A stretch of 39,637 bases of DNA from Methylocapsa sp. S129 (GTDB lineage Bacteria; Pseudomonadota; Alphaproteobacteria; Rhizobiales; Beijerinckiaceae): NCBI RefSeq assembly GCF_009765995.1, contig NZ_LMUI01000059.1, positions 105,444 to 145,080 on the forward strand, written 5' to 3'. The notes beneath the pieces are model-generated. The model was not told the DNA's origin and did not search any database. It was given only the letters and a program-made list of their open reading frames with translations. Below, piece after piece: positions 12,016 through 34,075 of the stretch (position 1 is its first letter; the number at the start of each line of letters is the position of its first letter). The position numbers and the translations under genes are program-made.

Positions 12016-12030
12016 TCACTCCCACTCGAT
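12016..12030. repeat. Putative distal attachment site, exact copy of the guaA 3' end
   Basis: The 15 bp TCACTCCCACTCGAT are identical to 34061-34075, where they encode the last five codons of guaA (Ile-Glu-Trp-Glu-stop on the minus strand). Matches extend a few bases to the left (ATCCCCT here, ATTCCCG at guaA). The guaA 3' end is a well-known integration site for tyrosine-recombinase islands, so this is a candidate distal att site. Confidence 0.6.
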
Positions 12031-12704: not shown

Positions 12705-13379
12705 TCAGGGAATCTCCCGAATCAACTTGGCGTAGGAAACCTTCCGCACCGGGTCCCATTCATCCGTCTTCTCGACGCCCCGAAGCGTACGGTGGTACCT
12801 TCCAGTGTGATTAAGCTGGGTCGGATCCAAAAATCGCATTCCGGTGCAGCCGGCCCGCAGAACGCGCAACGCGAACTCGTCCGTGCACAAAGCGATCTTG
12901 AAAAACCGATCGTAGAAAAGCTCATGGGCCGGCTCGGCGTCCGGACGGAAGGCGACAGCGTCAGGGGTCCCCCACAGCTCATCGCCGTCGGGACGATGCC
13001 GGAACTGGTAGTCCGAGCGTGCCGGATCGGTGACGTCCTCGGCCACCGGGACATGCATGAGTTGATAGCGCTTCGAGCGCGGCAGCGGCGCGGATTGGCT
13101 GGAATCGACGTCGAAATACTGGATATCGGAGGGGCCGAGTGCCATGACGCGTCTCATTTCCTCCGAGACGAACATGAACTTGCCCAATCGGAAGCAATCC
13201 TCGCCGAAATCCTCGCGAGTGAATTCAAGCCGGGCGATTGGCAACGCTGCGCCAAATTCTCCGGCGGCGGGAAGCAAGGGCAATAACTCCGCGGCGTTCC
13301 AGAATTCGTAGCCGCTCCAGAGACCTTTTCGATTTTCCCAGTGCGGGAACCAGGGCGTGACCACCCAGAATGTCTTCAT
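12705..13379 (-). CDS. Imm11-family (DUF1629) immunity protein, third in tandem
   Basis: A 224-residue protein from the ATG at 13377-13379, with a GAGGCGA site upstream. It shares with its two upstream neighbours the core RRVMALGPSDIQYFDVDSSQ, then APLPRSKRYQLMHVPVAEDV, EPAHELFYDRFFKIALCTDE and LRVLRAGCTG. This core is typical of the DUF1629/Imm11 family (MXAN_0049-like), known as immunity proteins of polymorphic toxins. It has the most diverged N-terminus of the three. Together they form a run toxin-Imm-Imm-Imm on the minus strand. The extra copies may protect against toxin variants carried by competitors; that role is inferred. Confidence 0.85.
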   Translation of the reverse strand: MKTFWVVTPWFPHWENRKGLWSGYEFWNAAELLPLLPAAGEFGAALPIARLEFTREDFGEDCFRLGKFMFVSEEMRRVMALGPSDIQYFDVDSSQSAPLPRSKRYQLMHVPVAEDVTDPARSDYQFRHRPDGDELWGTPDAVAFRPDAEPAHELFYDRFFKIALCTDEFALRVLRAGCTGMRFLDPTQLNHTGRYHRTLRGVEKTDEWDPVRKVSYAKLIREIP

Positions 13380-13410
13380 GTCTCGCCTCACGATTCTGCA
13401 GGAGCCCCTT

Positions 13411-14082
13411 TCAGGGGATCGTCTCGACCAATTTGGTGCGGAAGATCCTCTTGTTCCATCTGACGATCTCCTCGACGCCGCGCAGCGTGCGCAACCGTTC
13501 GAAGTTGCCGCGGGGATGGGACGGATCGAAAAAATACGCGCCAGGGCAGCCTGCCTTCAAGATTCGCAGCGCGAATTCATCGGTGCAGTAAATGACCCTG
13601 AAAAGCTTATCGTAGAAAATTTCGTGCGCCGGCTCGGCATCTTGGCGAAAGACGACGCGGAGCGGCATGCCGGTCTGGACGGTGGAGCCATCGGGAAGGT
13701 GACGGCAAATGTAGTCTGAGTTTATCGGATCAGACGCGTCCTCCGTCACAGGAATATGCAAGATTCGATAGTTTTTTGATCGCGGCAGAGGCGCGGACTC
13801 GCTCGCATCAACGTCGAAATATTGGATGTCGGAGGGGCCGAGAGCCATGGCGTTTCTCATTTTCTCCGACACGAACGTGAAACTGCCCCAGTAGAAGCAA
13901 TCGCGATCGAAAGTCTCGAGCGTCAAGGCGAGCTTCGCTGAGGGTAGCCGGCCTCGCAAAAACCGTCCCGCAATCGGTCCTTCCCCGCACGGCTCCGAGA
14001 CGCGCGAAACCGTGCAATGGTTCACAAGCCTGTCCGCGTCGCGGAGGTACAGCCAATACACGAACATCCAATATCTCTTCAT
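13411..14082 (-). CDS. Imm11-family (DUF1629) immunity protein, second in tandem
   Basis: A 223-residue protein from the ATG at 14080-14082 with GAGGCGG before it; a longer in-frame start is not needed. It opens MKRYWMFVYWLYLRDAD, close to the first copy (FWMFVDWTAYRKDAQ). The shared family core is RNAMALGPSDIQYFDVDASE, APLPRSKNYRILHIPVTEDA, EPAHEIFYDKLFRVIYCTDE, LRILKAGCPGAYFFDPS and TLRGVEEIVRWN. It sits 31 bp upstream of the third copy and about 88 bp below the first, so a single transcript is likely. Confidence 0.87.
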   Translation of the reverse strand: MKRYWMFVYWLYLRDADRLVNHCTVSRVSEPCGEGPIAGRFLRGRLPSAKLALTLETFDRDCFYWGSFTFVSEKMRNAMALGPSDIQYFDVDASESAPLPRSKNYRILHIPVTEDASDPINSDYICRHLPDGSTVQTGMPLRVVFRQDAEPAHEIFYDKLFRVIYCTDEFALRILKAGCPGAYFFDPSHPRGNFERLRTLRGVEEIVRWNKRIFRTKLVETIP

Positions 14083-14170
14083 AGGCCGCCTCAGCGCCCC
14101 AGCAACCGACCTGCGTCGAGCCAATTCTGCAGCCATGGTGTGGGCATCCAGAACATCTTCACGATTGGCC

Positions 14171-14872
14171 TCATGGCTCCGCGAAATCCGGTTTCAGGGG
14201 AATTTCATCAATCAGCTTGGTGCGCGGGATATTCAGGACGGGATTCCATTTAATGATCTCCTCGACCCCGCGAAGCGTGCGGATGCGCTGGTTGCCCACG
14301 CCGGACCAGCAAGAGGGATCGAAAAAAAACGCGCCGGAGCAGCCCGCCCGCAGGACCCGCACCGCGAAGGCGTCGGAACAGTAGATGAATTTGAAGATTC
14401 GATCGTAGAAAAGCTCATGCGCCGGCCGAGCGTCGGGGCGGAAAACGACATTGTTCGGGCTGTCGATTTCGAGGGAACCGTCGGCGCGATGCCGAACCAA
14501 GTAATCCGAGTTCTCGAGGTCGGAAACGTCCTCCGTCACCGGAACATGCATGACTTGATAATTTTTCGATCTGGGTAACGGCGCGCAGTCGCTTGCATCG
14601 ACTTCGAAATACTGGATATCGGACGGGCCAAGCGCCATCGCGCGCCTCATTTTTTCCGACACGAAAGAGAACTCGCTCCAACGGAAACAATCACGGTCAA
14701 AATCCTCGAGCGTCACGGTGAGCTTCGCCGTGAGCAACTCTTCATGCACAAACGCTCCGGCGACAGCTTGTTTATCGGACGCTTTCGAGTTGCGAAAAGC
14801 GGTGCAACTCCTCCGGAATTGGGCATCTTTGCGGTAAGCCGTCCAATCCACGAACATCCAGAACGGCGTCAC
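14171..14872 (-). CDS. Imm11-family (DUF1629) immunity protein, first in tandem, next to the toxin
   Basis: A 233-residue protein from a GTG at 14870-14872 with AGGTGA just upstream. It has the family core RRAMALGPSDIQYFEVDASD, APLPRSKNYQVMHVPVTEDV, PAHELFYDRIFKFIYCSDAF and VRVLRAGCSGAFFFDPS. It begins 8 bp after the toxin stop codon, which makes it the cognate immunity gene by position. The Imm11 family is established as an immunity family; which of the three proteins neutralises this toxin cannot be read from sequence. Confidence 0.88.
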   Translation of the reverse strand: MTPFWMFVDWTAYRKDAQFRRSCTAFRNSKASDKQAVAGAFVHEELLTAKLTVTLEDFDRDCFRWSEFSFVSEKMRRAMALGPSDIQYFEVDASDCAPLPRSKNYQVMHVPVTEDVSDLENSDYLVRHRADGSLEIDSPNNVVFRPDARPAHELFYDRIFKFIYCSDAFAVRVLRAGCSGAFFFDPSCWSGVGNQRIRTLRGVEEIIKWNPVLNIPRTKLIDEIPLKPDFAEP

Positions 14873-14880
14873 GTTTCACC

Positions 14881-16386
14881 TCAGTGCAATCGGGGCATCC
14901 ATTTGCCGGTTTCGATCGAATCTCTCATCTTTCCCGCCACTTTTTCAAAAATCGCGCGCGCTTGCGCAGGTGTCGGTGTACCGAGATACTCCGCTTCTTC
15001 AATGACGATTTTGCCCCACACCATCGCGTCGTATTTCGAGTGACTCGAGCTGTGAATCGGCAGATTCGGAGCGAGTTTCGCCTGGGCCGCCTCATTGGCC
15101 GGCAAGGCGATGAGATTCTCGATCGAATCCGGCTGCCATCCCGCCTGACTAGCAAGCGTTGCAAGAGGCAACTGCTCTCCCCACACGTTTGCGGGAATGA
15201 GATGGTGGGCCCGCATTTGGTCGTTGGGCTTAAGGTTCAGTGCGGCGCGCGCGCTTGAACTTGTGGTTTGGAGCGCGGCAGGCAAGTTCTCGGGGCGCGG
15301 CCGGCTCTCGAATATCGCGCCGCCGCGCATGCCGTCCTCTACGGCGACATTGATACAGCGCCCCGACAGCTGGTCACCCTGCAAGGCGAGATAAAGCGTG
15401 CCGGGTCTGGCAAGCTCGAGCGCCATAATGGACTGGCGCACGGATTCGAGCTGCTCTCCTCCGCCCCACGGCACATCGAAGTAGTTCCTGGGCGCCCCGT
15501 ATTCGGCCCAGACATAGGCGCGTGCGGCGAGAACGTCGGTCGCGCTTGTCGGATCAAGATCAAATTTGCTGATTGCGTCAGTGACCCTCGCTCTTTCCCT
15601 GAGGGGATCCATCGCCGCCAGCAACGTTGCCGCTGCGATAATTTGGCCAGAGCCAAGCTTGAGCGCTCCGCCTGCCAGTCTGGTTATATTTTCCCAATTC
15701 GCCGGATTTGCTTCAGGGATCCCCAGTCCATCCCAACGGATCGAGGCGTCGGCCACCTGCGCGCCGCCAATGTGGCTGCCGTAGCCTGCATAGATCCCAC
15801 GGTCCTCGACGTCAGGAGCATTCCGCGTGCTGTCGCCGCCCTGGTTGTTGTTCGGTGGAGCAGATTGATTGTTCGAGGAAGGTTGCTGCGATTCCGCCGT
15901 CCCGCGGGAGGATTGGCCGGCCGCAGAATCGTCACTCTTCGGCGCGAATTGTCCGCCTTGGCTGTCAGGGGCGCCAGCAGGCCAACGAGGGTGTTCGTCA
16001 GGATCCCAATCGGCTTTGAGCAGGCCGCTCCAGAGAAGCTCGCGAGCGAGCTCGATCATCTCCTGGCGCGAAGGCGCGCCCTTGGAAAGGGACGGCGGAT
16101 GGGGGATGCCCAGCAGCACTGTGGCGACCTGGGCGCGGACGACATCGCCTTCGTTGAGCGCCTTGGCGATTGCCGTAAGGCCGCCCCTCTTCGACGACAT
16201 ATCGACGGGCAGGTCGTATTGCGCGCTCATCTCTTGCGAGAGGTCGTCGCAATCGCGCGGCCGCCATTCGTCTTTGCCGTTCTGGCGCGTTCGAACGAGC
16301 AATGGAACGGCGCCGACGAAAGCCCCGCCCTCGTCGCAGAAGACGCCGCCGTTTCCGCGCCGCGATAGACGAAATTCGTGAATCAA
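14881..16386 (-). CDS. Polymorphic toxin with C-terminal AHH nuclease domain
   Basis: A 501-residue protein if it starts at the TTG at 16384-16386 (IHEFRLSRRGNGG). The N-terminal part (about 1-150) contains LPVDMSSKRGGLTAIAKALN and the motif HPRWPAGAPDSQGGQFAP, seen in rhizobial toxin and phage-like proteins. A low-complexity Ser/Gln/Asn/Pro linker (about 155-195) and a middle alpha-helical region follow. The C-terminus carries the AHH-family signature: AHHLIPANVWG at 393-403, then ENLIALPAN and HSSSHSKYDAMVWG (His residues near 445-450). AHH domains belong to the His-Me/HNH superfamily of nucleases and are delivered as toxin tips. No signal peptide, VgrG or PAAR domain is visible, so the export route is unclear. 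Three Imm11 genes follow in the same operon. Confidence 0.82.
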   Translation of the reverse strand: MIHEFRLSRRGNGGVFCDEGGAFVGAVPLLVRTRQNGKDEWRPRDCDDLSQEMSAQYDLPVDMSSKRGGLTAIAKALNEGDVVRAQVATVLLGIPHPPSLSKGAPSRQEMIELARELLWSGLLKADWDPDEHPRWPAGAPDSQGGQFAPKSDDSAAGQSSRGTAESQQPSSNNQSAPPNNNQGGDSTRNAPDVEDRGIYAGYGSHIGGAQVADASIRWDGLGIPEANPANWENITRLAGGALKLGSGQIIAAATLLAAMDPLRERARVTDAISKFDLDPTSATDVLAARAYVWAEYGAPRNYFDVPWGGGEQLESVRQSIMALELARPGTLYLALQGDQLSGRCINVAVEDGMRGGAIFESRPRPENLPAALQTTSSSARAALNLKPNDQMRAHHLIPANVWGEQLPLATLASQAGWQPDSIENLIALPANEAAQAKLAPNLPIHSSSHSKYDAMVWGKIVIEEAEYLGTPTPAQARAIFEKVAGKMRDSIETGKWMPRLH

Positions 16387-20378: not shown

Positions 20379-21311
20379 ATGATCTACCCGCCTCACCCCC
20401 ATCCGCTCGACTTCGACTGGCGCTACGATGACGCCACCGCCCAAGCGCTCACAACCCTGCTTAGGGATTCGCCGCCAATCGTCGCGATCGGTGCTCCGAC
20501 CGTCGCTCGTCTCCTCGAAGCGACAGGAGTCGACGTAACGCTGGTGGATCGTCAGCCGATTCAGGCCGCGCGACGACACATCGTGTGCGATGCCACCGAT
20601 TTCATCGCGGACCGCCAGTACCGTACCGCCCTCGCTGATCCGCCATGGTACCCGACGCAGCTCAGCAGCTGGTCTGAGGCGGCCGCCAGGGCCGTCGGCG
20701 TCGGCGGCACGGTCTTCGTTTCGGTGTGGCCCGATATGACTAGGCCGTCAGCAGCGGGGGAAGTGGCGTTCGCCCTTAAGGGCTTCTCGCGCTGGGCTCA
20801 CATCTGCCGCAATGTGGCGACGCTTCGCTACGCAACGCCCTGGTTCGAGACGGTTGCGCGCAAACACGGAGAGGGCATCGAACTCTCGCGATCGCCGCTG
20901 ATCGGAGAGCTGGTCCGCCTAGACGTTCGTACACTCCCGCCCGTCGGCTTGGCAGAAGACGCGGTGGAGCAATGGCTACGCTTCGCGATCGACGACTATC
21001 AGCTAGCGATCAGGCGCCGACCAGGCGAGGGTCCCATGGGAATGGAACCGGTATTGTCAGCTGACGGATGGTACTGGCCTTATGTCAGCGCCCGCGCGCC
21101 CGGCATCGATCAGATCGACATTTGGAGCTCGGACAGCGAAGTCGCGAGGCTAGAATCATCGGAACGTATGATTGACGTGGTCCGACAGGCCTTGCGCGTG
21201 CCCGACAGCGACGCGTTCGAACGGGCGCTGATCGACGTGCCCGCCCTACTCTCATGGCGCATCCCGCGCCCACCATATCGGAGATTGATCGAATGGCAGC
21301 ACCGGCAATAG
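20379..21311 (+). CDS. Methyltransferase-like protein with a DPPW motif
   Basis: A 310-residue protein. The first half reads as a Rossmann-like fold: IVAIGAPTVARLLEATGVDV, TLVDRQPIQAARRHIVCDAT, then YRTALADPPWYPTQLSSW and GGTVFVSVWPDM. DPPW is the catalytic motif type of N6-adenine/MT-A70-like methyltransferases, but the usual glycine-rich SAM motif is poor, so it may be a diverged or inactive member. The C-terminal third (MGMEPVLSADGWYWPYVSAR, IDQIDIWSSDSEVARL) is unfamiliar. The 3' end overlaps the following metallophosphoesterase gene by 19 bp, showing a two-gene operon. It could modify or sense DNA, RNA or a nucleotide, and I cannot choose among these. Confidence 0.6.
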   Translation: MIYPPHPHPLDFDWRYDDATAQALTTLLRDSPPIVAIGAPTVARLLEATGVDVTLVDRQPIQAARRHIVCDATDFIADRQYRTALADPPWYPTQLSSWSEAAARAVGVGGTVFVSVWPDMTRPSAAGEVAFALKGFSRWAHICRNVATLRYATPWFETVARKHGEGIELSRSPLIGELVRLDVRTLPPVGLAEDAVEQWLRFAIDDYQLAIRRRPGEGPMGMEPVLSADGWYWPYVSARAPGIDQIDIWSSDSEVARLESSERMIDVVRQALRVPDSDAFERALIDVPALLSWRIPRPPYRRLIEWQHRQ

Positions 21312-22747
21312 CGCTCCGATTCCGCGATACCACGCCAGGAATCGACACCATTGCGGAGCACCGCGAGCTGATCGCTCGTGACGGCCGAGTCGGATGGGGC
21401 TGGTGGAAGAAGACATTCGAGCCAGCTGAGACGAAAAAGATCCACGCATTACTGGATGATGATCGCGAGATCGGCATCATATTGATCGACCGAACGGCTG
21501 AACGCGCGTATCTGTGCGCGTGTGTTGGTTTTGCCGAACCGAACGCGGCAGAAGCCAAAATAGTCCCCCCGTACTACAGGGATCATCTCGACGAGACCGC
21601 CGGCGTCTTCATCCTACGGACTATCGAAGACCTGGACTATGACGAAGCGCTTGCCGATGCGATTCGGGAGCAGACCTTTCTTTGGATCGGTGCAGTCGCG
21701 GATCCGGTTCTTGGCCACGTCGCAACCGCCGCTCAGGCCCCCGGTCGATCCTGCGTCCTTCATCTCTCGGACCTGCACTTCGGCAAGGACTATGGTTTCC
21801 GCCTCCAGGGTGAGGACGTGGCGATCGGCGACGGCCGTCACACACTTACCGAATGCATCGTCGCCGATCTCGAGCGGCTTGGCTTAACGAACGACATCGC
21901 TGCGATCATCGTGACCGGAGACTTTATGACGCACGGCGACTGGGCCGGCGCGCCACGACGTGCGGCGCTTGCGGAGTTCGAAACGTTGCGTAAGCGCCTC
22001 GAACTACAGAAGAACCAGATTATTGCCGTGCCTGGTAACCACGACGTGGTGCGATACTCCGACCCTGCTAAGATCGACGTTCGCGAAAACGCCGTCGAAA
22101 AGCAGGCTAACTACGAGCATGAAACCATGTTCAGAACCTTCGTGGACGAGCTCGTCGGTCGCGACTGGAAAGCGTCGCTAAACTACATCCGCCGAATCCA
22201 CCTCGGCGAGGCAGATCTTGATGTCTGTGTGCTGAACTCCTGTACGATTGCCGCCACCGAATGGACGGAGTACGGCTATGTAGGACGGAATGGCTTGGAC
22301 GCGATCGCTGAGCTGGCAAAGCAAAAAGTCGAGCGACCGACCTTCCGATTCCTCGCACTTCACCATCATCTGCTTCCAGTCGCGAACGTGGAAGCTCCAA
22401 AGTCCAGGGGAGTGACGTTGACACTGGATGCATCCGACATCCTGGCTGCAGCACAGCGCGGCGGTGTCAACGTAGCCCTTCATGGTCATCAGCATAAGCC
22501 GAAGATCGCAATGTATCAGAGCCTTCCCCTTAACGGAGAAGTGGCTGGCACGCCGATCCATGTCGTTGCCAACGGCAGCGCAGGAGCAAAGAACGACCGC
22601 CTGCCTCCGGGGGAACGAAACACCTACTGCCTATTCCGTCTGCGCGCGAACGCGATCGACCTCTGGATCCGCGAATTGCGGCTAGACGCGGTCGCGGGAG
22701 CACAGGTGTTCCACGGTGCGCTTCCTGTAGCTCCAATTGCTGTATGA
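21293..22747 (+). CDS. Metallophosphoesterase with an N-terminal GWGWWKK domain
   Basis: A 484-residue protein from the ATG at 21293, which overlaps the preceding gene by 19 bp. The C-terminal two-thirds is a calcineurin-like phosphoesterase with all metal motifs: LHLSDLHFG, VTGDFMTHG, VPGNHDVV, ALHHHLLP and LHGHQHKP. The first ~150 residues form a separate domain with FRDTTPGIDTIAEHRELIAR, VGWGWWKKTFEP and IGIILIDRTAERAYLCACVG. Its aromatic GWGWWKK segment suggests binding of a nucleic acid or nucleotide, though I cannot name the family. With the DPPW protein it forms a candidate two-gene defence unit in which the phosphoesterase would be the effector. Confidence 0.8.
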   Translation: MAAPAIALRFRDTTPGIDTIAEHRELIARDGRVGWGWWKKTFEPAETKKIHALLDDDREIGIILIDRTAERAYLCACVGFAEPNAAEAKIVPPYYRDHLDETAGVFILRTIEDLDYDEALADAIREQTFLWIGAVADPVLGHVATAAQAPGRSCVLHLSDLHFGKDYGFRLQGEDVAIGDGRHTLTECIVADLERLGLTNDIAAIIVTGDFMTHGDWAGAPRRAALAEFETLRKRLELQKNQIIAVPGNHDVVRYSDPAKIDVRENAVEKQANYEHETMFRTFVDELVGRDWKASLNYIRRIHLGEADLDVCVLNSCTIAATEWTEYGYVGRNGLDAIAELAKQKVERPTFRFLALHHHLLPVANVEAPKSRGVTLTLDASDILAAAQRGGVNVALHGHQHKPKIAMYQSLPLNGEVAGTPIHVVANGSAGAKNDRLPPGERNTYCLFRLRANAIDLWIRELRLDAVAGAQVFHGALPVAPIAV

Positions 22748-23964: not shown

Positions 23965-24144
23965 CGTCCGTCTCCATTTGACGGACTCTCATTTCAACTG
24001 AGGGACCTTGTGGGGGGCAGGTCAACCGCACTTCGAAGTTCGCCCTCACCCAGCTCACCGACACGGACCATTCAGGACAGCTTCCCTTGCTTCGCCTCAT
24101 CCATTCTGGTTCATGACGTCTCAACGACGATGCCACGCTCGGAC

Positions 24145-25527
24145 TTACGAAAATGACTCATCAAAAATCAACGTGCGCCCGTTGTTTGCCGCCTGGTAGT
24201 ACTCAGCCCGGCACGAACCTCCGTTAAAGGTGAGGAGCGCGTACCCATGATTGTAGACGCCGCCTGTGGTGCCGAGTTCTGACTGATCTAGCAATGACGG
24301 CGTCTCGTCAAGATTCGCAAGCGGCTCGTAGACTTTGTCGATAACGGAAACCGGCACGGCGCCGTGGCCCAAACAGCGGCCACGCTCCAGTCCTGCGAAC
24401 GGATTATAAATGCTGAGTATATGCTCATGGCCCCAGAACCACGCAGCGACCCCCTTGGTCTGCGTCATCTGCTGAAATGCTTTAAGCAGCCGAGGATTCA
24501 CCGCAGATCGCTTTCCCTGAACATCCGCCGGCCCAATGGGGGAAAAGGCTGAAAACAGCTGGTGATGGGACAGCAAAATGGTTCGACCGGAAAACTCATT
24601 GATGCGGTCACAGTGCCAGGCGAGCTCATCCTCCTCCAGATATGTCACAGCACCGGCCACCGTCACCGGGTTATCATCGTGCAACCCCGTGTCCATCGCC
24701 AACAATTGCCACTTCTCGTCAGCAGACCTCAAACAGAAAAAGCTTGCCGGCTGCGTCAATGGGGCGGCGTTCAGCTGCTTGATAAGCTCATAAAAGCCGC
24801 CCCCTCCACAGTACATGTCATGGTTGCCTGACAGCGAATATACGGGCATGTTCGCGCTGGTTCGGAGAACAGCACTGATCGGATCGATAAAGTTCGATCG
24901 GCATTCCGCAGGCGTGCCTGAGTAGTAAATGTCACCCAGGTGCACAACCAGATCCGGGTGGTCACCGGCGACATATTTCAGGACACCGATCGCAGGCGGT
25001 GCGCCGGTGCCCCAGTCCCCCATTAAAGCGACACGCGCGTTGCTCTTGATCTCGATGGTTTTTGGGCCGACGGTTGCCGCGCGGACGTAGGGCACCGCTT
25101 TGCGCTTACCGTCTTCGCCCAGGTAGCTTCGGTACGCCTCTAAGGTGGTGAACCATGCTGGGTCGCAAGTCCCCGCCGTGAACTCATCCTTCAGTTGTGC
25201 GATGGCCTGGTCGTCCCTTGACGCCATGGCTTTGAGATACCGAAAGCCCCATTCTGCGCAGACCTGCGCCATTCCGGACTTGGAAAGCTCGCGTGCGGTC
25301 AGATCACCACGAGGAACGGGCGCAACGCCACCCGTTGAACGATTGTATTCGCGCTCGGCGATACCTGCGGCGATATCCGGAAGCGTACTGGTCATCGACC
25401 GCCGCGCGCCAGCGCGACTTGCGACACTGGCTTTTGCGCCCTGATCGATTTTTTTAGCGACTTCTGTGACAGCCGATTGGTACAAAGAAAGAAGCGGGTC
25501 GCGGAATGTTCTAAATGAGTCGGGCAT
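24145..25527 (-). CDS. Metallophosphoesterase, purple-acid-phosphatase-like, last gene of the TIR/caspase operon
   Basis: A 460-residue protein with no signal peptide. The catalytic half (about 170-400) has ARVALMGDWGTG, VVHLGDIYYSG, YSLSGNHDMYCG, ILLSHHQLFS and FWGHEHI. The GDWG and GDIYY forms of the first motifs place it near purple acid phosphatases and class III phosphodiesterases rather than the DxH type found at 21293. The N-terminal ~165 residues are helical and unfamiliar. Its start overlaps the preceding small gene by 17 bp, so it belongs to the TIR/TIR/caspase operon. It could be a second effector or could hydrolyse a nucleotide signal and so switch the system off; both roles are inferred. 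Confidence 0.85.
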   Translation of the reverse strand: MPDSFRTFRDPLLSLYQSAVTEVAKKIDQGAKASVASRAGARRSMTSTLPDIAAGIAEREYNRSTGGVAPVPRGDLTARELSKSGMAQVCAEWGFRYLKAMASRDDQAIAQLKDEFTAGTCDPAWFTTLEAYRSYLGEDGKRKAVPYVRAATVGPKTIEIKSNARVALMGDWGTGAPPAIGVLKYVAGDHPDLVVHLGDIYYSGTPAECRSNFIDPISAVLRTSANMPVYSLSGNHDMYCGGGGFYELIKQLNAAPLTQPASFFCLRSADEKWQLLAMDTGLHDDNPVTVAGAVTYLEEDELAWHCDRINEFSGRTILLSHHQLFSAFSPIGPADVQGKRSAVNPRLLKAFQQMTQTKGVAAWFWGHEHILSIYNPFAGLERGRCLGHGAVPVSVIDKVYEPLANLDETPSLLDQSELGTTGGVYNHGYALLTFNGGSCRAEYYQAANNGRTLIFDESFS

Positions 25528-25819
25528 TATCGTTGCTTTCTTTCCGAACGAGATCCAGCCAGCGCTCCAGGAGAGGAAGATACTTCCTCACCTGCTCACG
25601 ATCGCTCTCCTTTTCCTCTGCAGTAAGATCCGCGTACTGCGTATTTATCTGACGTTCCCAGCGCACCACGAGGTCCGCGGGCAACACGATTGAACCATCC
25701 GGCTGCCGCTGACCGTTGTCATGAACATATTTCTGCCAGTGGGCCCAACGCTGATGCTCAAGCGCGGCAAACTCTTCGACCAGCGACTCAAATGGCAGAT
25801 GACTTTTATGATCGGACAT
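25511..25819 (-). CDS. Small RyR-domain-like protein
   Basis: A 102-residue protein. The pattern EEFAALEHQRWAHWQKYVHD, then WERQINTQYADLTAEEKESD and REQVRKYLPLLERW resembles RyR-type domains (a conserved Glu-His-x-Arg-Trp start, LTxxEKxxDR in the middle, and a final helix). RyR-like domains have been proposed as sensors of nucleotide ligands in prokaryotic nucleotide-signalling immune systems. Here it lies 16 bp after the caspase and overlaps the phosphoesterase by 17 bp. A ligand-binding role in the same pathway is a reasonable but untested reading. Confidence 0.65.
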   Translation of the reverse strand: MSDHKSHLPFESLVEEFAALEHQRWAHWQKYVHDNGQRQPDGSIVLPADLVVRWERQINTQYADLTAEEKESDREQVRKYLPLLERWLDLVRKESNDNARLI

Positions 25820-25835
25820 CCCAGCCTCGCATGCC

Positions 25836-26831
25836 TCAGATCAGATTTTCAGCAACGAGCGTACGATAATGTTCGCCGAGAACCGTTAGCTCGCATGACT
25901 TGCGTTCCATTGCGGCGTGCCACATGTGGGGCGCATCGACCGGACGGACTAAGTTCACTCTCACATAGTTCTGTAACACCGTAAAAATGGCCGTTTTGGC
26001 AGGATCTGGCGCCGGAATATTTGGATCTTCCCGCTGCTCCTTAGACCTTTCTTTCTCAAACGACGGATCGAGTTGGAACTTGTAACCTGGTTGTGGAAAA
26101 TGAGTGGCCAGTTGCAGAAGCTCTGCGAATGCGATCGGGGGAGCCGCCTTACGGAGAGACACAAAGGACTTTACGTTGGTTTTAAACACCGGGCGCTGCC
26201 CACCCCAAGGACCTAGCGACTGGTCAATATGGGCATACACGCTGCCAGGTGTGACGTCGCCAACCAGATTAGCCGCGGCGCCATTCAAGGCGTCGACAAG
26301 CAGGTTCGTGAAGACACCCGGCGCCCCGTTGCCACCCTCAAACGAATACTGATTCTCGGTTGAGGCCGTAAGGAGCGTCATGCCTTGGCAGATCTCGGCA
26401 ATGCTACCGCCGCCAGGCCGGTTAGCGGCAATTCCGCCATGGCAGCTGTCAAGAATTATAATCTTGTTTTTCGCCGGCGAGAGTCGCGCGAAGGTCATCA
26501 CGTCGCTCAGCGCCAGCCCGTCATGACCATTCCGGCAGTCGCTTGCACAAAGGAAGCCGCCAGTCTCATCAACATATCCGTGGCCTGCAAAATAAAGTAG
26601 GGCGATCTCGGAATCATCCTTGAAAAGGGCTTCGATAGAATCTCGAAGCTCGTCGCGGTCGACAGCGTTGTGAGCGCCGGTGCTGGTTAGCACCTTTGGT
26701 GTGGTGAAGTTCGTTGTGCCATTTGCGTGACGACCAAGGACGCCTGCCACAGCATCCGCGTCATTGACACACCCAGTGAGCGGCGTGAGGTCATGATAAT
26801 AATCAAGGCCGACGACAAGAGCTTTACGCAT
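25836..26831 (-). CDS. Caspase-like (peptidase C14) effector
   Basis: A 331-residue protein from the ATG at 26829-26831, 7 bp after the upstream TIR-like gene; a start at 26873 would overlap that gene. The p20-like domain has [20 protein letters not shown], the catalytic His in [16 protein letters not shown] and the catalytic Cys in [17 protein letters not shown], then [15 protein letters not shown]. The C-terminal ~100 residues ([13 protein letters not shown], then [20 protein letters not shown] and [10 protein letters not shown]) form a separate domain that I take to be the sensing part. Downstream of two TIR genes, it fits reported TIR-activated caspase (type IV Thoeris-like) systems, in which a TIR-made signal switches on a suicidal protease. 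Confidence 0.88.
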
Positions 26832-26838
26832 AGCGAGG

Positions 26839-27210
26839 TCAAAGAGAGTCAATGAAGTTACTGATGTTCGCATCGCTCCAAGTGTAAGTGGTCACGCCGT
26901 CCAGCTCGGTTCGATCGCTGCTGTATGCATAAATTCCGCGAATTTTCTTTTTCTCTTCCTTTGCGCAGGCGATTTCCCATTTTTGACCGGTGGATGCCTT
27001 AGAATTTTTGCTTACCAGAACGATAACGCCGTCAGACCGCTTGATCCGGGTTCGGACCTTTTCTTTCCAGCCGCTGTCGTAGGCGTCCTTGACCGACATA
27101 TCGATAAATTCAAACGGCGCACGCGGATGGAGGGATTGGCCCTTGAGGAAATCCCGCTGCGTCTCATCTTCGATGGCGAAGGCAATAAAAACGACTTTCT
27201 TGTCGGCCAT
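26839..27210 (-). CDS. ThsB-like TIR-fold protein (DUF1863)
   Basis: A 123-residue protein from the ATG at 27208-27210, with GAGGAAA 6-7 nt upstream. It is a typical short DUF1863/ThsB-type TIR protein: [20 protein letters not shown], then [40 protein letters not shown] and the Glu in [11 protein letters not shown], the position of the catalytic Glu in NAD-consuming TIRs. ThsB proteins in Thoeris recognise infection and make cyclic ADP-ribose isomers. It lies between a second TIR gene (35 bp upstream) and the caspase (7 bp downstream), which fits a sensor/signal-maker. Confidence 0.9.
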
Positions 27211-27245
27211 GGTTGTTTCCTCGTGTTGATCGGTTCTGTTGGAAT

Positions 27246-27728
27246 TTATGGTTGGCCGAGAGAGGCCTTAAGGGACGTGTGAAACGCCCGAAAACCCGAC
27301 GCTCGGGCGGTGGTTCGATAGCCTTTTTGCACGCGGTCTTCGACGAGCAGCTCAGCCCGTTTCGATTCCGCGGCATACTTGTCGAGATCTGCACTGGTCC
27401 GGAGATAGGGCCATTTCAGCAAAAATTCGGGGACAGTGGCGGTGCCGGAGACGAACGAAGCCAGAAAGCGCTCCTTCTCAGTCGCGACGCCGATTTCCCA
27501 TGGCACCCACCACGATGCTTGGGTCTGCGCGCTGATGACGGCGAGAAGCTGGGTACATTGGTCGAGCTGAGCACGAATGTAATCTGCCAGATCCGGCCCG
27601 CTTTTTCTCAGCTGCGCATCGATGACATCCAGGTAGACGCCTAAGCCCCTCGCAGAAAGGTGCGCCGCAACGGCAGCAGCCTGCTCCGCGTCCTCTTTTT
27701 TATGTGAAACGAAGACTTTTATAGCCAT
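27246..27728 (-). CDS. TIR-domain protein, first gene of the TIR/caspase operon
   Basis: A 160-residue protein from an ATG at 27726-27728 with GGAGGGG about 7 nt upstream. TIR features: KVFVSHKKEDAEQAAAVAAH, LGVYLDVIDAQL, IRAQLDQCTQLLAVISAQTQ and ASWWVPWEIGVATEKER, with Glu in the catalytic position. This is a canonical TIR, unlike the DUF1863 type next to it, so the operon has two different TIR proteins. They could detect different phage cues or make different nucleotides. It heads the minus-strand operon and is divergent, across about 280 bp, from the caspase-helicase operon. Confidence 0.9.
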   Translation of the reverse strand: MAIKVFVSHKKEDAEQAAAVAAHLSARGLGVYLDVIDAQLRKSGPDLADYIRAQLDQCTQLLAVISAQTQASWWVPWEIGVATEKERFLASFVSGTATVPEFLLKWPYLRTSADLDKYAAESKRAELLVEDRVQKGYRTTARASGFRAFHTSLKASLGQP

Positions 27729-28011
27729 TACAGCCCCTCCCGCCTAGAACATTTGCAGAACAACAGATCTAACGCAACCCTTACGTGCGATAAAACATCA
27801 ATTTCCACCGGAATTGACCGTCCAAGGCGGTACGGCGAGGAGCACTCGTCAGCAGAGAGTTTGGAAGGCCGTTTCGGTCCGATGACTAGGAAGACCCCAC
27901 CTCCTCAACGTGCCCTCCCGATGGCATCCGCGATTCCGTCTCGACCTTCGTTCGTGCTATGTTCCGCAGCCACTTTGGCGTTCGATTCGGACCGATGGAG
28001 GTATGCGGGCG
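27729..28011. promoter_or_regulatory. Divergent intergenic region between two caspase operons
   Basis: 283 bp separate the TIR start (27728) and the ATG at 28012, so it must hold both promoters. I found no promoter boxes good enough to call. A plus-strand frame at 27753-28064 lacks a ribosome-binding site and overlaps the next gene. The only firm signal is the GGAGGT site at 27997-28002, whose spacing favours the start at 28012. Confidence 0.4.
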
Positions 28012-28617
28012 ATGGCTGTTCTCGGCGAACTCCTATTTTACCGGCGCGACCAGGTCGACCTTGATGACGTTCTGCGGCGTCAGGTCGAGCTTCTGCGCAG
28101 CCGCGTTGATGCGCTTCCCGACAAGTTGTTTGCGGACAAAACTGATGAAGAGATCGCGGCTCAGATCGCTGCCGAGACGACGATCCAGTCGTTGAATGTC
28201 GACCTCGCGGCGGCCAAGGCCAGCGTGCAGGAAGTGCAGGTCGAGGTTCACGACCGTTGGGGCTATGAGCGGGGATCGGTTCGCGTGCCGGGCCTTAAGG
28301 CGACAAAAGCGATCCCCTTCACGGGGGAGCGCGATCTTTGGCACCTGCGCACCAATCCCTACAACTTGAACCCGCCCCGCGGTGAGGTACGCGGCGACAA
28401 ATTGATTATCGGCATAGAAGTCGCCGCGCACCAAGCTGACGAAGCCGCGAAGTACATCGAAGACACCACCGCCCAGATCCCCGAATACCTGCAGCGGCAA
28501 GAGGCTCAGCTCGCAACCCACAATGCTGGTTTGGCCGGACATGCGATGCAGTGGATCATGATGCGTCGCGGCCGCCTCGGCACCGCCAACGATCTCCTTA
28601 AGAAGTTGGGGGGCTAG
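28012..28617 (+). CDS. Uncharacterised partner protein of the caspase-helicase
   Basis: A 201-residue protein from the ATG at 28012, which is correctly spaced from GGAGGT at 27997-28002; a start at 28003 would abut the site. The first ~90 residues form long charged helices (QVDLDDVLRRQVELLRSRVD, EEIAAQIAAETTIQSLNVDL). A beta-rich region follows (VQVEVHDRWGYERGSVRVPG, FTGERDLWHLRTNPYNLNPP, RGEVRGDKLIIGIEV), then a helical tail. I do not recognise the family and see no catalytic motif. Its stop is 5 bp before the start of the caspase-helicase, so the two are co-expressed. A sensor or regulator that releases the caspase is the obvious hypothesis. Confidence 0.7.
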   Translation: MAVLGELLFYRRDQVDLDDVLRRQVELLRSRVDALPDKLFADKTDEEIAAQIAAETTIQSLNVDLAAAKASVQEVQVEVHDRWGYERGSVRVPGLKATKAIPFTGERDLWHLRTNPYNLNPPRGEVRGDKLIIGIEVAAHQADEAAKYIEDTTAQIPEYLQRQEAQLATHNAGLAGHAMQWIMMRRGRLGTANDLLKKLGG

Positions 28618-28622
28618 GGGTC

Positions 28623-31600
28623 ATGGCGTTTCGGGGACTCTTCATCGGCATCGATCGTTATCTCTCGCCAGAGATCAATGAGCTGAGTTGCGCCCGCCGC
28701 GACGCCGTTGCGCTCGAAGCGCTGTTCAGCGACACCCTTGGCGGTGTCTCGCGCCTGGTTATGGACGAAGAAGCCACGCGGGCCCGTCTTGAGCGCGAAT
28801 TCGAAGATCTGACTAACTGCGATCCCGCCGACACTGTCGTCATCGGCTTCTCCGGTCACGGTTCGGAAACGCACGAACTCGTCACCTACGACACGCAGCT
28901 GCACGACATCACCAACACCACGCTGCCGCTCGGGCTGATCGAGGAATGGTTCTCGCGCATTCCCGCCCGACGTCTCATCTTCCTGCTCGACTGCTGCTTC
29001 TCGGGCGGCATCGGCGCGAAGGTCCTTCAGGTCGAAGCGCGGCCGCGCGACCTTCGCTCCATTGAGGCGCGCCTCGATCAACTGGCTGGCGATGGCCGCA
29101 TCATCTTCACCGCGTCCAATGCCAATGAGCCCGCCTACGAGCACAGCCGCTTCGGCCACGGCTTCTTCACCTACTATTTGCTCGAAGGGCTCCGCGGAGT
29201 ACCCGAGATCATCGATAGCGGCAAGCTGCCGATCTATCGTCTCCTCGACTACGTGACTGGCCGCGTCACCGCCGCTGCCCATCAGATCGGTCGACCGCAA
29301 AATCCCACCTTCCGCGGCACTATGGACGGGGCCGTCACTTGGCCGATTTTCGTTCCGGGTGCGCGCTACTTCGCGGCGTTTCCAGACCGTGCGCCCGCGA
29401 ACGTCTCAAGAGACATTCGCTCGCTGGAGGCGGTTGGCTTTCCGCCTGCTCTTGTAAGCGCTTGGGCAGCACCGATCCCATCCCTCAACGCGCTGCAGGT
29501 CGAGGCCGTCAACGACTTTGGCGTCCTCAATGGACAGCATCTTGTCGTCTCCGCGCCGACCTCGTCAGGCAAGACGATGATTGGCGAACTCGCCGCGCTT
29601 CGGAACGTGCTCGACCGCAAGCGTGCGATCTTCCTCCTGCCTCTGAAGGCCCTGGTCGCCGACAAGCGGCGACACTTCCAAGCCACCTACTCGTCGTTCG
29701 GTGTCCGGACCATAGAGGCGACGGGTGAGACGGACGACATCACGCCGCTCCTACGCGGCCAGTACGATATCGCGTTGCTGACCTACGAGAAATTTGCAGC
29801 GGTCGCGCTCACATATCCGCATGTACTGCGACAGGCCGGTGTCATCGTAGTCGACGAAGCCCAGATGATCGCCGACGAGGGCCGTGGCGCGAACCTGGAG
29901 TTCATCCTCACCTTGATCCGCATGCAGAGGCGGATCGACGTGGAGCCTCAGATCATCGCACTTTCCGCGGTGATCGGCGATACCAACGGTCTCGAACGCT
30001 GGCTTGGCGCTCGGCTGCTGCGGCGGAACGAACGTCCCGTCCCCCTTGATGAGGGACTCATACTCGCCGATGGCTCCTTTCGGTTTATCCACTCGGAGAC
30101 GGGCAAGGAATCGAGTTCACCTCCGATCATCCGGCGCCACTATGGGAAAGGATCTAGCCAGGACTGGATCATCCCGCTGGTCCAGAGGCTTGTTAGCGAA
30201 AACCAACAGGTCATCATCTTCCGCGAGCAGAAGGGCGAGACGCGCGGATGCGCGCGTTACCTTGGTGATGCGCTCGGCCTGCCGCCCGTGTCAGCCGCGC
30301 TTGATCAGCTTCCGGCCGGTGATCCCTCCCAGGCGAGCCAAGACCTTCGTCGTGTGCTCGGCCAAGGCGTCGCCTTTCATAATTCGGACCTTGAGCCCGA
30401 AGAGCGCCGCATCATCGAAGAAGAATTCCGCAAGCCCGGATCGGACCTGAGGGTGATTGCGGCGACGACCACCCTCGCCATGGGCGTCAACACGCCTGCC
30501 TCATCCGTCATCATCGCCGGCCTCGAACATCCCGGCGACAAACCCTATTCCGTTGCCGAGTATAAGAACCTCGTCGGCCGAGCCGGCCGTCTCGGTTTCG
30601 CCGAAAAGGGCACCTCCTACCTTCTCGCCACCGACCCGCGCGCCGAGTTCGATTTCTGGTCGCGTTATGTCACCGGCGCGCCGGAGGATTTGTTGTCGCG
30701 CTTCTTGGATAGCGGCACCGATCCTCGCTCGCTCATCGTCAAGGTGCTCGTCGCAGCGCGTCGCGCCAGCGTAGAAGGCGTTAGCGCTGACGAGATCATC
30801 GATTTCCTGGAAGCAAGCTTTGGCGCATTCCAAGCCGCCGCCCAGAGCGCGAATTGGCGGTGGAGCCGCGATAACCTCGTCGATGCGCTGGGTGATCTGA
30901 GCCGCCACCAGCTCATCGAGATCAATGACCAGGGCAACTACCATCTGCTCCCGCTCGGCCGCCTCGCAGGCGAGTCCGCCATCGAGGTTGGATCAATCAT
31001 CCGCCTTGTCGAAAGTCTTTCTGGACTGACACCGGATGAGATCACCGACCCTGCCCTTATCAGCGCCTCGCAGTCGACGGTGGAGCTCGACCAAGTGCTC
31101 TTCCCGATAAACAAGAAGAGTACACAGAAGGAGCCGTACCTCTGGCCCAACGAGCTGCGCCAGCAAGGAGTCGCTCAACGCATCCTCTCGGCGTTTCAGC
31201 GCTTCGCTGTTGATAGCCATCAGGTGACGTTGAGGGCCAAGAAGGCTGTTGCATGCTTGCTCTATATCTCCGGCCGTCCGATGCAGGATGTCGAGCAGAC
31301 GATGACGCAATTCGGCGGCGCTTTCGGTGGCGCCGCAGGCCCAGTCCGAAGCGCAGCCGCGCGGACAGCAGATGTGTTGCCCACCGCAGCGCGTGTGGCC
31401 GAGATTCTGCACCCAGGCCTCGACCTTGGCGACCGCGTCTCAAGGCTCACCTTGCGACTGGCCTATGGGATCCCAGGTGCTGCCGTTGATCTCGCTCGGG
31501 AGGCAGGTACCGAACTACTCCGCGGCGACTACACCCGCCTCGCGCAGCAGAAACTCTGTGAGCCTGCAGCGATTCAAACGGCAACTGACGCAACTCTCCT

Positions 31601-31724
31601 CGCCTGCATCGACGGTGACGCAAGGAAGCTTCGGGTCATCCGCAATGCTGCTGAAACGATCGCCAGCCGGCGCGAACGAGCGACCATTGCGGCTCTGCCG
31701 GTGTTGGAGCCGTATGTGGCCTGA
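28623..31724 (+). CDS. Caspase-Ski2-like helicase fusion protein
   Basis: A 1033-residue protein. Residues 1-240 are a caspase/peptidase C14 domain: MAFRGLFIGIDRYL, catalytic His79 in VVIGFSGHGSE, and the Cys pair in FLLDCCFSGG (second Cys, 125, by analogy with metacaspases), then IFTASNANEPAYE. From about 265 an SF2 helicase follows: SLNALQVEAV, Walker A APTSSGKT (311-318), LLPLKALVADKRR, DEAQ (411-414), LSAV (448-451), ATTTLAMGVNTP (614-625) and NLVGRAGR (649-656). The VGRAGR form and overall order place it in the Ski2-like group, as in HamB and related defence helicases. A helical C-terminal part runs to 1033. Both enzymatic sites look intact. The logical model is that nucleic-acid engagement by the helicase triggers proteolysis. 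Confidence 0.9.
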   Translation: MAFRGLFIGIDRYLSPEINELSCARRDAVALEALFSDTLGGVSRLVMDEEATRARLEREFEDLTNCDPADTVVIGFSGHGSETHELVTYDTQLHDITNTTLPLGLIEEWFSRIPARRLIFLLDCCFSGGIGAKVLQVEARPRDLRSIEARLDQLAGDGRIIFTASNANEPAYEHSRFGHGFFTYYLLEGLRGVPEIIDSGKLPIYRLLDYVTGRVTAAAHQIGRPQNPTFRGTMDGAVTWPIFVPGARYFAAFPDRAPANVSRDIRSLEAVGFPPALVSAWAAPIPSLNALQVEAVNDFGVLNGQHLVVSAPTSSGKTMIGELAALRNVLDRKRAIFLLPLKALVADKRRHFQATYSSFGVRTIEATGETDDITPLLRGQYDIALLTYEKFAAVALTYPHVLRQAGVIVVDEAQMIADEGRGANLEFILTLIRMQRRIDVEPQIIALSAVIGDTNGLERWLGARLLRRNERPVPLDEGLILADGSFRFIHSETGKESSSPPIIRRHYGKGSSQDWIIPLVQRLVSENQQVIIFREQKGETRGCARYLGDALGLPPVSAALDQLPAGDPSQASQDLRRVLGQGVAFHNSDLEPEERRIIEEEFRKPGSDLRVIAATTTLAMGVNTPASSVIIAGLEHPGDKPYSVAEYKNLVGRAGRLGFAEKGTSYLLATDPRAEFDFWSRYVTGAPEDLLSRFLDSGTDPRSLIVKVLVAARRASVEGVSADEIIDFLEASFGAFQAAAQSANWRWSRDNLVDALGDLSRHQLIEINDQGNYHLLPLGRLAGESAIEVGSIIRLVESLSGLTPDEITDPALISASQSTVELDQVLFPINKKSTQKEPYLWPNELRQQGVAQRILSAFQRFAVDSHQVTLRAKKAVACLLYISGRPMQDVEQTMTQFGGAFGGAAGPVRSAAARTADVLPTAARVAEILHPGLDLGDRVSRLTLRLAYGIPGAAVDLAREAGTELLRGDYTRLAQQKLCEPAAIQTATDATLLACIDGDARKLRVIRNAAETIASRRERATIAALPVLEPYVA

Positions 31725-31739
31725 CGAAACTAAGAATTC

Positions 31740-31999: not shown

Positions 32000-33649
32000 T
32001 CATGCCCGATCGACAATCCGCTCGACGCCTTCGACAACAAGCTTGGCGTCATTACGTGTCACGGGCCTTCCCGTGTGGACCGCATCGTTACGAAGCTTTG
32101 TCCACTCCGAGATGCGGCCGAAGTTCTCCTGTACAATTCCTTGTTCTCTTGCGAGATCAAGCAACTGCCGCATGGACATCGGCCTTCGCACAGCATCGCG
32201 CGGGGCTTTGTTTAAGCGCTGGCGCAAGGTCGTTTCGAGCAGTGTCATCGCCGAAATCACCGCAGCGCGATATTCCCTGGCTTCAAGAAGCCGGCGCGGT
32301 TCCTGGCGTTGCGCGAGACCCATCCCGTCCGCCAGGCGTTGCAGGTGCATGCCAAGGTCCTGCACGAATGGACTGTCCTCGGAAAGGACCGCTGGGCGTT
32401 CAATCACAAAATGTCCAAGGGTCGGAGTTGGCAATTGAGAAAATTCCGTGACGACCGGGATAACCTCCAGCCGCCGACGGTTCGGCCGTTCGCCTGTCTC
32501 CTGTGCACGCGCCAAAGCGAGTCCTAATTCGAATTGCGTATTAGAAGAGCTAGCATCAACGACCATCACCGCGGCACGGTCGATGAGCGTATCGATTTTT
32601 GCGCTGACGCTCTCGCCAAGATTGACAACGTCGGCGGCCGTCACGGGGACAAACCCCGCGGCTTCCGCCAGCGGAAACACGTTCTCGCGGTAGAACGGGA
32701 GCACATCGAGCGGCGTCGCAAACAGACAAAGCCGGCTCATGGCATCGCGTGGAAGCAGAAACTGCTCCAGCGGCCCTTCCTCGGTTGCCTTCAGCGTGGG
32801 ACCCGCGTGCTCACGCCGATACTCGCGCAATTCAGCAAAGGCCTCGGCGAGAACCGCGCCGGATCGCTCGCGTGTACCCGGTAGGTTGACCACCTTGACT
32901 CCCCGACGCTCGAAGCGCGCGATGTCCCCGGGCTTTGCATTGACCATGACGGCGTAAGCCATGCGCCGGGTTTTACCCAGGCGGCTCGCCACCACCTGCC
33001 AAATCTGTCTAAAGTCGGGATCCTCAAGACTGTACCCGATGAACACGGCCGTCTTCGTGATAAGCAGGTTCGAGAGATAGGTCGCGATCAGCGGATAATT
33101 CGTAAGGAAGCCGTCATAGTCGGCTTCTGTCACCACAAGCCGTTTGGGGTGGCGGACATCACCATGCAGCTTCAAAAGAAGCGTACCCGTGGCGCCCACA
33201 TTGATAGACAGTTGATCTTCGTCCACCACCGGGTGAACCGTCCGGTTATCCTGACGCTCCATGTCGTATTGTTTTTCGAGCAGGAAATCGAAATTCGTGG
33301 TGCAAACGATGTCGAACGGAAGGCTGCAAAACTCCTTGTGCGCGGAACCCGGCTGTACCCGATCGAGATGGAGCAGCTCCACCAGCCGCTCGATGAGGCG
33401 GGCTCGCCCAAATTCATGTTCGTAAGCCGAAATGCCATCGAGCACGCTGGTCGGCGAATAGTCCATCAGCTCATCGGCGAAGCTCTTACCGAGCTCTGAC
33501 CATAGCGGCATCTTCGCGGGCGGCGGCAGTTTCGCATTTAGCGACATTCCGGCGCCGACGACCGGCAGCCACCGGCCATTCACCAGGTCTTCTAAGAGCG
33601 GCTTTGGAAAATGAACGAGATACTTTGGCGCCACGCAATAGCTCGGCAT
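32000..33649 (-). CDS. SIR2 / nucleotide-binding-like / HEPN-like three-domain defence protein
   Basis: A 549-residue protein from the ATG at 33647-33649; no strong ribosome-binding site marks the start, so a start further upstream remains possible. Residues 20-270 are a SIR2 domain: WLPVVGAGMSLNA (NAD-binding GAG), CTTNFDFLLE, the catalytic-type His in LLLKLHGDVRHP and FIGYSLEDPDFR. Residues about 300-415 (SRLCLFATPLDVLPFYRENV, FVPVTAADVV, VMVVDASSSNTQFELGLALA) look like a TIR- or nucleotide deoxyribosyltransferase-like Rossmann domain. The C-terminal ~100 residues look HEPN-like, with LRNDAVHTG (R-x4-H). SIR2 domains in phage defence deplete NAD+. It stands alone on the minus strand at the guaA end of the island. 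Confidence 0.82.
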   Translation of the reverse strand: MPSYCVAPKYLVHFPKPLLEDLVNGRWLPVVGAGMSLNAKLPPPAKMPLWSELGKSFADELMDYSPTSVLDGISAYEHEFGRARLIERLVELLHLDRVQPGSAHKEFCSLPFDIVCTTNFDFLLEKQYDMERQDNRTVHPVVDEDQLSINVGATGTLLLKLHGDVRHPKRLVVTEADYDGFLTNYPLIATYLSNLLITKTAVFIGYSLEDPDFRQIWQVVASRLGKTRRMAYAVMVNAKPGDIARFERRGVKVVNLPGTRERSGAVLAEAFAELREYRREHAGPTLKATEEGPLEQFLLPRDAMSRLCLFATPLDVLPFYRENVFPLAEAAGFVPVTAADVVNLGESVSAKIDTLIDRAAVMVVDASSSNTQFELGLALARAQETGERPNRRRLEVIPVVTEFSQLPTPTLGHFVIERPAVLSEDSPFVQDLGMHLQRLADGMGLAQRQEPRRLLEAREYRAAVISAMTLLETTLRQRLNKAPRDAVRRPMSMRQLLDLAREQGIVQENFGRISEWTKLRNDAVHTGRPVTRNDAKLVVEGVERIVDRA

Positions 33650-34060
33650 CTTATGGATGGGGATAGAATGTCTGATAAGGCGACAAACCCAAATTTTAAT
33701 CAAGGATAATGGATGGGGTATTACTCGCCGCACGCCGGCGGGGAGCCCGATGCCCTTCGCTAGCGCTCATCGGATTCGCCCCGGTCTTAAGCGACACCCA
33801 GCGCGCAGTTGACCTATCAACGTCGAGGCGACCCGCCAATTTGCACGCTATTCTACGCTATATCCCTACGCCCGTCTGATTGCGCTTTTCTTTTTGAGCG
33901 CGTGTGCTTTGATTGGAGAATGAAAACGTACTGGAGAGTGGCCATTCGATAGATCGACTTCATCACTGGATAGAACGGGTCCGGCAGCGATAGCACCTTG
34001 CGGTTTATGATTGATGGATTCGGGATCTGCGCGAAACTACGATTTCGCCGCCGATTCCCG
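33650..34060. other. Island-side junction region downstream of guaA
   Basis: About 410 bp between the SIR2 gene and the guaA stop codon, with no gene. It is relatively AT-rich with runs such as TTTTTGAG, unlike guaA. In islands inserted at guaA an integrase gene is commonly found here, but none is present and I see no integrase remnant. It probably represents a deleted end of the element. Confidence 0.4.
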
Positions 34061-34075
34061 TCACTCCCACTCGAT
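34061..34075. repeat. Putative attachment core at the guaA 3' end
   Basis: TCACTCCCACTCGAT is the complement of the last five codons of guaA (Ile-Glu-Trp-Glu-stop). It is repeated exactly at 12016-12030 and nearly at 16620-16632. The guaA 3' end is an established genomic-island insertion hotspot. Confidence 0.6.

Follow-up and report, generated by a model that had tools for sequence, protein, structure and literature searches.

A caspase joined to a Hel308-like helicase: a candidate mobile defence protein of Methylocapsa sp. S129 and other bacteria

RESULTS

The fusion gene and its relatives

The DNA analysed here (the window, 39,637 nucleotides of contig NZ_LMUI01000059.1 from Methylocapsa sp. 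S129) carries a gene that joins a caspase and a superfamily 2 (SF2) helicase in a single protein. This fusion gene (28623..31724, plus strand) is an intact open reading frame (ORF) of 1033 amino acids (aa). Its caspase domain (28623..29342, about residues 1–240) matches Pfam Peptidase_C14 over residues 6–232 (E = 8e-12; 45.7 bits, above the cut-off of 21.4) and contains the motifs GFSGHGSE, with His79, and LLDCCFSGG, with Asp123 and Cys125. Asp123, two residues before the catalytic Cys, presumably has a role in the S1 pocket, which would suggest a basic P1 residue as in metacaspases. A sequence search for solved-structure relatives of the window's caspase domain alone returned none that was convincing. 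The Hel308-like SF2 helicase (29415..31634, about residues 265–1004), delimited by NCBIfam and a Protein Data Bank (PDB) profile, comprises the helicase core and a C-terminal part; the Pfam domains DEAD (E = 4e-22) and Helicase_C (E = 6e-9) together span residues 292–658, and the motifs APTSSGKT, VDEAQ and GRAGR are present. The ORF, the Pfam matches and the motifs thus bear out an earlier note on this DNA, which had described a 1033-residue protein joining an intact caspase to an intact SF2 helicase.

A search of 72,556 plasmid records gave 24 matches at 1e-20, 12 of which covered at least 80% of the fusion protein. A scan of genome contigs confirmed 142 relatives, and the 80 that were kept each matched at least 819 residues of the query; a further homologue was found in viral contigs. 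The row set consisted of the window and 93 homologues with the same two-domain layout, for which the earlier note had proposed to look, and was reduced to 77 representatives by merging at 95% identity; some of the 94 rows are shortened (L040 matches residues 1–819 only, and L075 lies at a contig edge). According to the record titles, the relatives belong to Pseudomonadota, Cyanobacteria, Actinomycetota and Bacteroidota, with further ones from metagenome-assembled genomes (MAGs) titled Chloroflexi, Acidobacteria, Armatimonadetes, Nitrospirae, Bacillota and two candidate phyla. As relatives were found via helicase motifs and ranked by similarity, with 80 of 142 kept, caspase-less forms would be under-represented. 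At one locus (L056:6276-11090), the fusion lies within an ORF of 1604 aa that has about 570 additional N-terminal residues.

His79, Asp123, Cys125, Lys317, Asp411, Glu412, Arg653 and Arg656 are kept in all 94 rows. The two parts have diverged to a similar extent among the 77 representatives (mean identity 44% for the caspase part and 46% for the helicase part), and their distances are correlated (r = 0.895), with none of 999 permutations reaching so high a value. The caspase and helicase parts have therefore travelled together and share a history. The intact motifs in every row and this co-evolution of the domains rule out an assembly artefact or a chance fusion, contrary to the possibility, raised in the earlier note, that homologues would expose the caspase as an artefact or lack the pair His79 and Cys125.

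The helicase resembles Hel308 rather than HamB

When a profile built from 11 fusions was compared with solved chains, the best match (305 bits) was 2zj2, which is labelled 'putative ski2-type helicase' and which we take to be Hjm/Hel308. Chains named Hel308 reached 276 and 272 bits, with 9b15 and 2p6r aligned at fusion residues 287–1001, and lower scores were obtained for ASCC3 (226), Pol theta (209), Brr2 (190), Ski2 (141), Mtr4 (125) and HamB (100). On the fusion protein, the PDB profile alignments start at residue 265 or 287 and end at 1001. The NCBIfam model PRK02362, presumably representing the Hel308 family, extends the helicase to residues 284–1014 (model positions 20–708 of 739; E = 4.5e-73). 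The resemblance to Hel308 therefore runs over nearly its whole length, the C-terminal part included.

A tree of 27 rows, including 16 fusions, five HamB rows and three archaeal helicases, placed all the fusions in a single clade (support 96/94) that joins one unclassified helicase (98/98) and then the three archaeal helicases (92/93), one of which (L122) exceeds the PRK02362 cut-off. The HamB rows formed a clade of their own (100/100) with the fusions outside it; the deeper joins are unsure because the program warns of long branches. HamB models gave at most 109 bits on the fusion, against 1581–1883 for four HamB genes. The tree and the structure profile (100 versus 272–305 bits) rule out membership of HamB, and the Ski2-like helicase of HamB type suggested in the earlier note is to be replaced by a Hel308-like one. 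HamA (DUF1837) was not found as the partner either, the 201-aa neighbour described below matching only PDC-S54 in PADLOC and nothing in Pfam. The top PADLOC match of the fusion, PDC-M23B, was rejected as a caspase–helicase family, since one member inspected by eye has no N-terminal caspase motif and a HamA-like neighbour.

Small upstream genes are optional

A gene for a 201-aa protein (28012..28617, plus strand) begins with ATG directly upstream of the fusion gene, and 5 bp separate its TAG stop from the fusion ATG, the distance given in the earlier note. The protein corresponds to the N-terminal half of PADLOC family PDC-S54 (E = 1.8e-29; residues 14–200 on positions 10–199 of 410) and is termed S54-N here. 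It has no Pfam match, and its sole NCBIfam match, to TIGR02960, is weak (16.9 bits; cut-off 265); no membrane segment is apparent (highest 19-residue hydropathy 0.77), and a sequence search for solved-structure relatives of the S54 protein gave none that was convincing. Long S54 members, including those of loci L058 and L065, in which both PDC-S54 halves are present, have GKTD...ECK in the C-terminal half. This motif, which has no Pfam match, may by our own reading mark a PD-(D/E)xK-like, nuclease-like half; the short members, the window copy among them, lack it.

By an ORF search of the loci, the S54-N family occurs in 7 of the 94, where it always adjoins the fusion gene: directly upstream in the window, L007, L008 and L028, upstream in L058, downstream in L051 and convergently downstream in L065. 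These seven loci represent at most five lineages, as read from a drawn quick tree. Outside the window's own genome, S54-N was found in only 1 of 397 other genomes of the phylum (1e-8), and with a family so rare its position beside the fusion reflects linkage and not chance. A short S54-N gene on an Aminobacter plasmid (L101:5833-6408) stands without a fusion and faces, in convergent orientation, a long helicase-related gene of 5133 bp.

The upstream position can be taken by other genes. A DUF2158 gene lies 3–15 bp upstream of the fusion in 20 of the 94 loci (8 of the 77 representatives) and never shares a locus with S54-N, and in four representatives the slot is occupied by a gene of 298 to 442 aa. 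Neither S54-N nor DUF2158 was found in 67 of the 94 loci, of which a few are cut by a contig edge and some have little upstream DNA. These proportions suggest that the fusion is mostly autonomous, with exchangeable accessories. The partner that had looked conserved in the earlier note is thus truly linked to the fusion, but only in a minority of the family; at 7 of 94 loci it cannot be a general sensor or lock, as had been proposed, and a universal lock is ruled out in favour of an optional accessory.

The gene lies on mobile DNA among defence-type genes

The fusion gene is located in a 22-kb element (window 12016–34075) enclosed by a 15-bp direct repeat, for which shuffles with up to one mismatch allowed predict 0.01 matches. 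The left copy is at 12016..12030; the right copy (34061..34075) contains the final codons and stop of guaA, whose 3′ end forms the boundary. The end of guaA is a typical genomic-island site. No Phage_integrase match was found on the contig of this element, where serine recombinases were not searched for.

With window 12100–34000 as the query, a block of the window (24127..31732) proved to be shared at about 88% nucleotide identity, in two pieces, with a Rhodopseudomonas plasmid. Its borders are near the outer gene ends, and its seven genes are those for S54-N and the fusion and a divergent operon with Toll/interleukin-1 receptor (TIR) and caspase genes. In a second group (L019–L025, L029, L033 and L037), DUF2158 and the fusion are carried by a block that measures 13 kb or more and extends to the left edge of the available DNA; in L019 a contig edge truncates it. 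The block is 98.8–99.99% identical across nine contigs whose titles name several genera (Bradyrhizobium, Sphingomonas, Xanthobacter and Rhodopseudomonas), and its right border is the same in them.

The divergent operon (window 24145–27728, minus strand) encodes a TIR protein (160 aa), a TIR-like protein (123 aa), a caspase (345 aa) with intact GHG and DSCHGG, a 102-aa protein and a metallophosphoesterase, and resembles TIR–caspase immunity (type IV Thoeris). The two units could in principle form one composite system in which TIR-protein signals and the caspase–helicase act jointly, and the joint presence of all seven genes on the Rhodopseudomonas plasmid would fit, as would the arrangement in L031, where 15 bp lie between the fusion and the five-gene operon downstream of it, and the TIR genes downstream of the fusion in L008. 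However, Bradyrhizobium BTAi1 has the complete operon but not the fusion. The small TIR gene of the operon matches 41 plasmid records, and besides the window just 3 of the 77 representatives were seen to have it at a distance of up to 6 kb from the fusion. Co-location on islands suffices as an explanation. We consider a composite system very improbable.

Defence families are enriched beside the fusion. In scans with PADLOC 2023 at 1e-15, 127 fusion-flanking ORFs matched 114 families, and 127 ORFs of the window's own genome matched 23, these being counts of families and not of genes. The flanking ORFs (150–900 aa) came from 76 representatives, one per side, chosen by length; of the 139 listed, 12 were left out, namely five partner genes and seven further ORFs, most of them near-duplicates. 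The control ORFs were 127 of 147 from ten 20-kb stretches, and eight of them matched a single broad family (mad3). QatA, ThsA, LmuA, MkoB and methyltransferases are among the 25 of the 114 flanking families that were shown.

These surroundings also bear on a function in DNA repair. SPRTN is a eukaryotic protease for DNA–protein crosslinks, and a helicase-coupled bacterial protease might likewise digest proteins that are trapped at forks or joined to DNA by crosslinks. Such a role would agree with the function of Hel308-type helicases in DNA repair (PMC12278908), but sits poorly with the patchy, plasmid- and island-borne distribution of the fusion and with its defence-type neighbours, and we regard it as improbable.

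Other genes of the island were noted in passing. Between the fusion and guaA lies a SIR2_2 protein (window 32000–33733, minus strand) whose C-terminal half has no assignment. At 21254–22747 (plus strand), a Pua-like and metallophosphoesterase protein, the second metallophosphoesterase of the island, weakly matches PADLOC PDC-S60. An ORF with an AHH nuclease domain (12754–16386) is next to three diverged tandem repeats spaced 700–793 bp apart; the set may represent a toxin accompanied by repeated immunity genes.

DISCUSSION

Taken together, these data make it somewhat probable, in our judgement, that the fusion is an anti-phage or anti-mobile-element protein, mobile and mostly encoded as a single gene, with a caspase gated by a Hel308-like helicase. 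A virus-defence switch seems probable because many bacteria have relatives with this layout on mobile DNA, and gating of the caspase by the helicase is the likeliest arrangement given the precedents of HamAB and HamMAB (PMC12278908; PMC12799240). The helicase would survey DNA and load where its structure is abnormal, for instance at a free 3′ end, a stalled fork or an intermediate of phage replication. The N-terminal caspase would then be turned on by ATP-driven movement, or by a clustering of the protein, and would cleave cell proteins or a pro-effector, so that growth stops in an abortive response. In some lineages, the upstream accessory (the 201-aa S54-N or DUF2158) may tune sensing or restrain the enzyme.

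Several known systems offer parallels. In Hachiman (HamAB), a DNA end, ATP hydrolysis and ratcheting of HamB lead to the release or activation of HamA (PMC12278908). The likeness lies in a Ski2-class sensor helicase with a partner, and the authors themselves compare HamB to Hel308; the effector there is the nuclease HamA, whereas in the fusion it would be a protease. In HamMAB, a protease fused to HamA is triggered by DNA and ATP hydrolysis to cut the pro-nuclease HamM, and oligomerization is needed (PMC12799240). A Ski2-class helicase thus controls a protease in phage defence, but the protease is trypsin-like, sits on an inactive HamA in a chain separate from HamB, and has a metallo-β-lactamase (MBL)-type pro-nuclease as its substrate (PMC12799240). 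Here, by contrast, the caspase is covalently joined to a helicase of Hel308-like type. The 20 window proteins scanned gave no match to HamA or to MBL, and the Pfam coverage of the other loci extended to ten neighbour proteins. Canu (CanABC) likewise uses a caspase-family protease as the trigger enzyme in phage defence, but its CanA has an Ig-like fold, its target is the MBL-type pro-nuclease CanC, and the account drawn on describes no helicase (PMC12799240). Archaeal Hel308, HELQ and Pol theta are similar to the fusion across nearly the entire helicase (284–1014) and differ in that the fusion has an N-terminal caspase, is bacterial and mobile, and stays under the equivalog cut-offs.

The order of events could also be reversed, with the caspase as the switch and the helicase as the effector: a signal would trigger self-cleavage, for example after Arg142, and free the helicase to attack replication intermediates. 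Auto-proteolysis has been proposed by Kaur and colleagues for EACC1-caspase proteins, whose C-terminal domains are variable (PMC7159879), and the fusion caspase scores 89.6 bits on the NCBIfam EACC1-type model, below its cut-off of 140. In addition, position 142 has a basic residue in all 77 representatives (R in 75), 17 positions after Cys125 in 74 of them and directly ahead of a linker of variable length, which makes Arg142 a candidate self-cleavage site, although cleavage there is a guess. However, no EACC1 membrane partner was found upstream, the 201-aa protein having neither a Pfam match nor a membrane segment, and the C-terminal domain, which varies in EACC1 systems (PMC7159879), is the same helicase in all collected rows, albeit in a search that selected for it. 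We therefore think the reversed order unlikely and prefer gating of the caspase by the helicase.

Some observations weigh against a helicase-gated defence protein. Besides the many loci with neither upstream gene, S54-N is found without the fusion in 5 of 7 plasmid records, in one genome and in all eight viral loci (L106–L113), where no S54 gene stands beside a caspase–helicase. A search of 50,697 phage records did not return the fusion, viral contigs gave one match, and among 337 genomes sampled from the class the full fusion was present only in the window's own, one other having a helicase-only match. The PADLOC enrichment compares families, because PADLOC returns families by member, and its control is one genome that itself has AbiE and ThsB-like genes. 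As to the helicase, the equivalog cut-offs of NCBIfam are missed (247 of 887 bits for PRK02362, and 197 of 1200 for a model named Hel308 over residues 285–718), so we term it Hel308-like and not Hel308. Motif II reads DExQ in 90 rows and DExH in four. The archaeal Hel308 motif is DExH, and the substrate preference may therefore differ. Finally, no named or functionally tested caspase–helicase system was found in the open-licence PMC literature.

The pairing as such had been glimpsed before, as 12 of the 671 prokaryotic metacaspases in a survey from 2012 were counted under helicase activity (PMC3501461). Perhaps these belong to the present family; the portion of the survey considered here gives no family, partner, mobility or mechanism for them. 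We call the fusion a putative form of helicase-controlled proteolytic immunity assembled from different parts than the known systems. A broader proposal, which we advance tentatively and expect may well fail, is that bacteria of about ten phyla (by record titles, several represented by MAGs only) possess a one-chain switch from DNA trouble to cell death, made of a Hel308-class helicase and a caspase with S54-N and DUF2158 as exchangeable adaptors, and that where S54 keeps its nuclease-like half (L058 and L065) the caspase may cut a pro-nuclease.

If this is true, the loci L058 and L065 would represent a further, unrelated solution to helicase–protease–nuclease immunity. A Hel308-like helicase would be placed in bacteria, from which Hel308 is absent according to the Hachiman authors (PMC12278908). 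The family would also provide a small, one-gene model for the gating of a protease by a helicase, and it would couple genome surveillance directly and covalently to a caspase, a coupling that animals reach only via long pathways.

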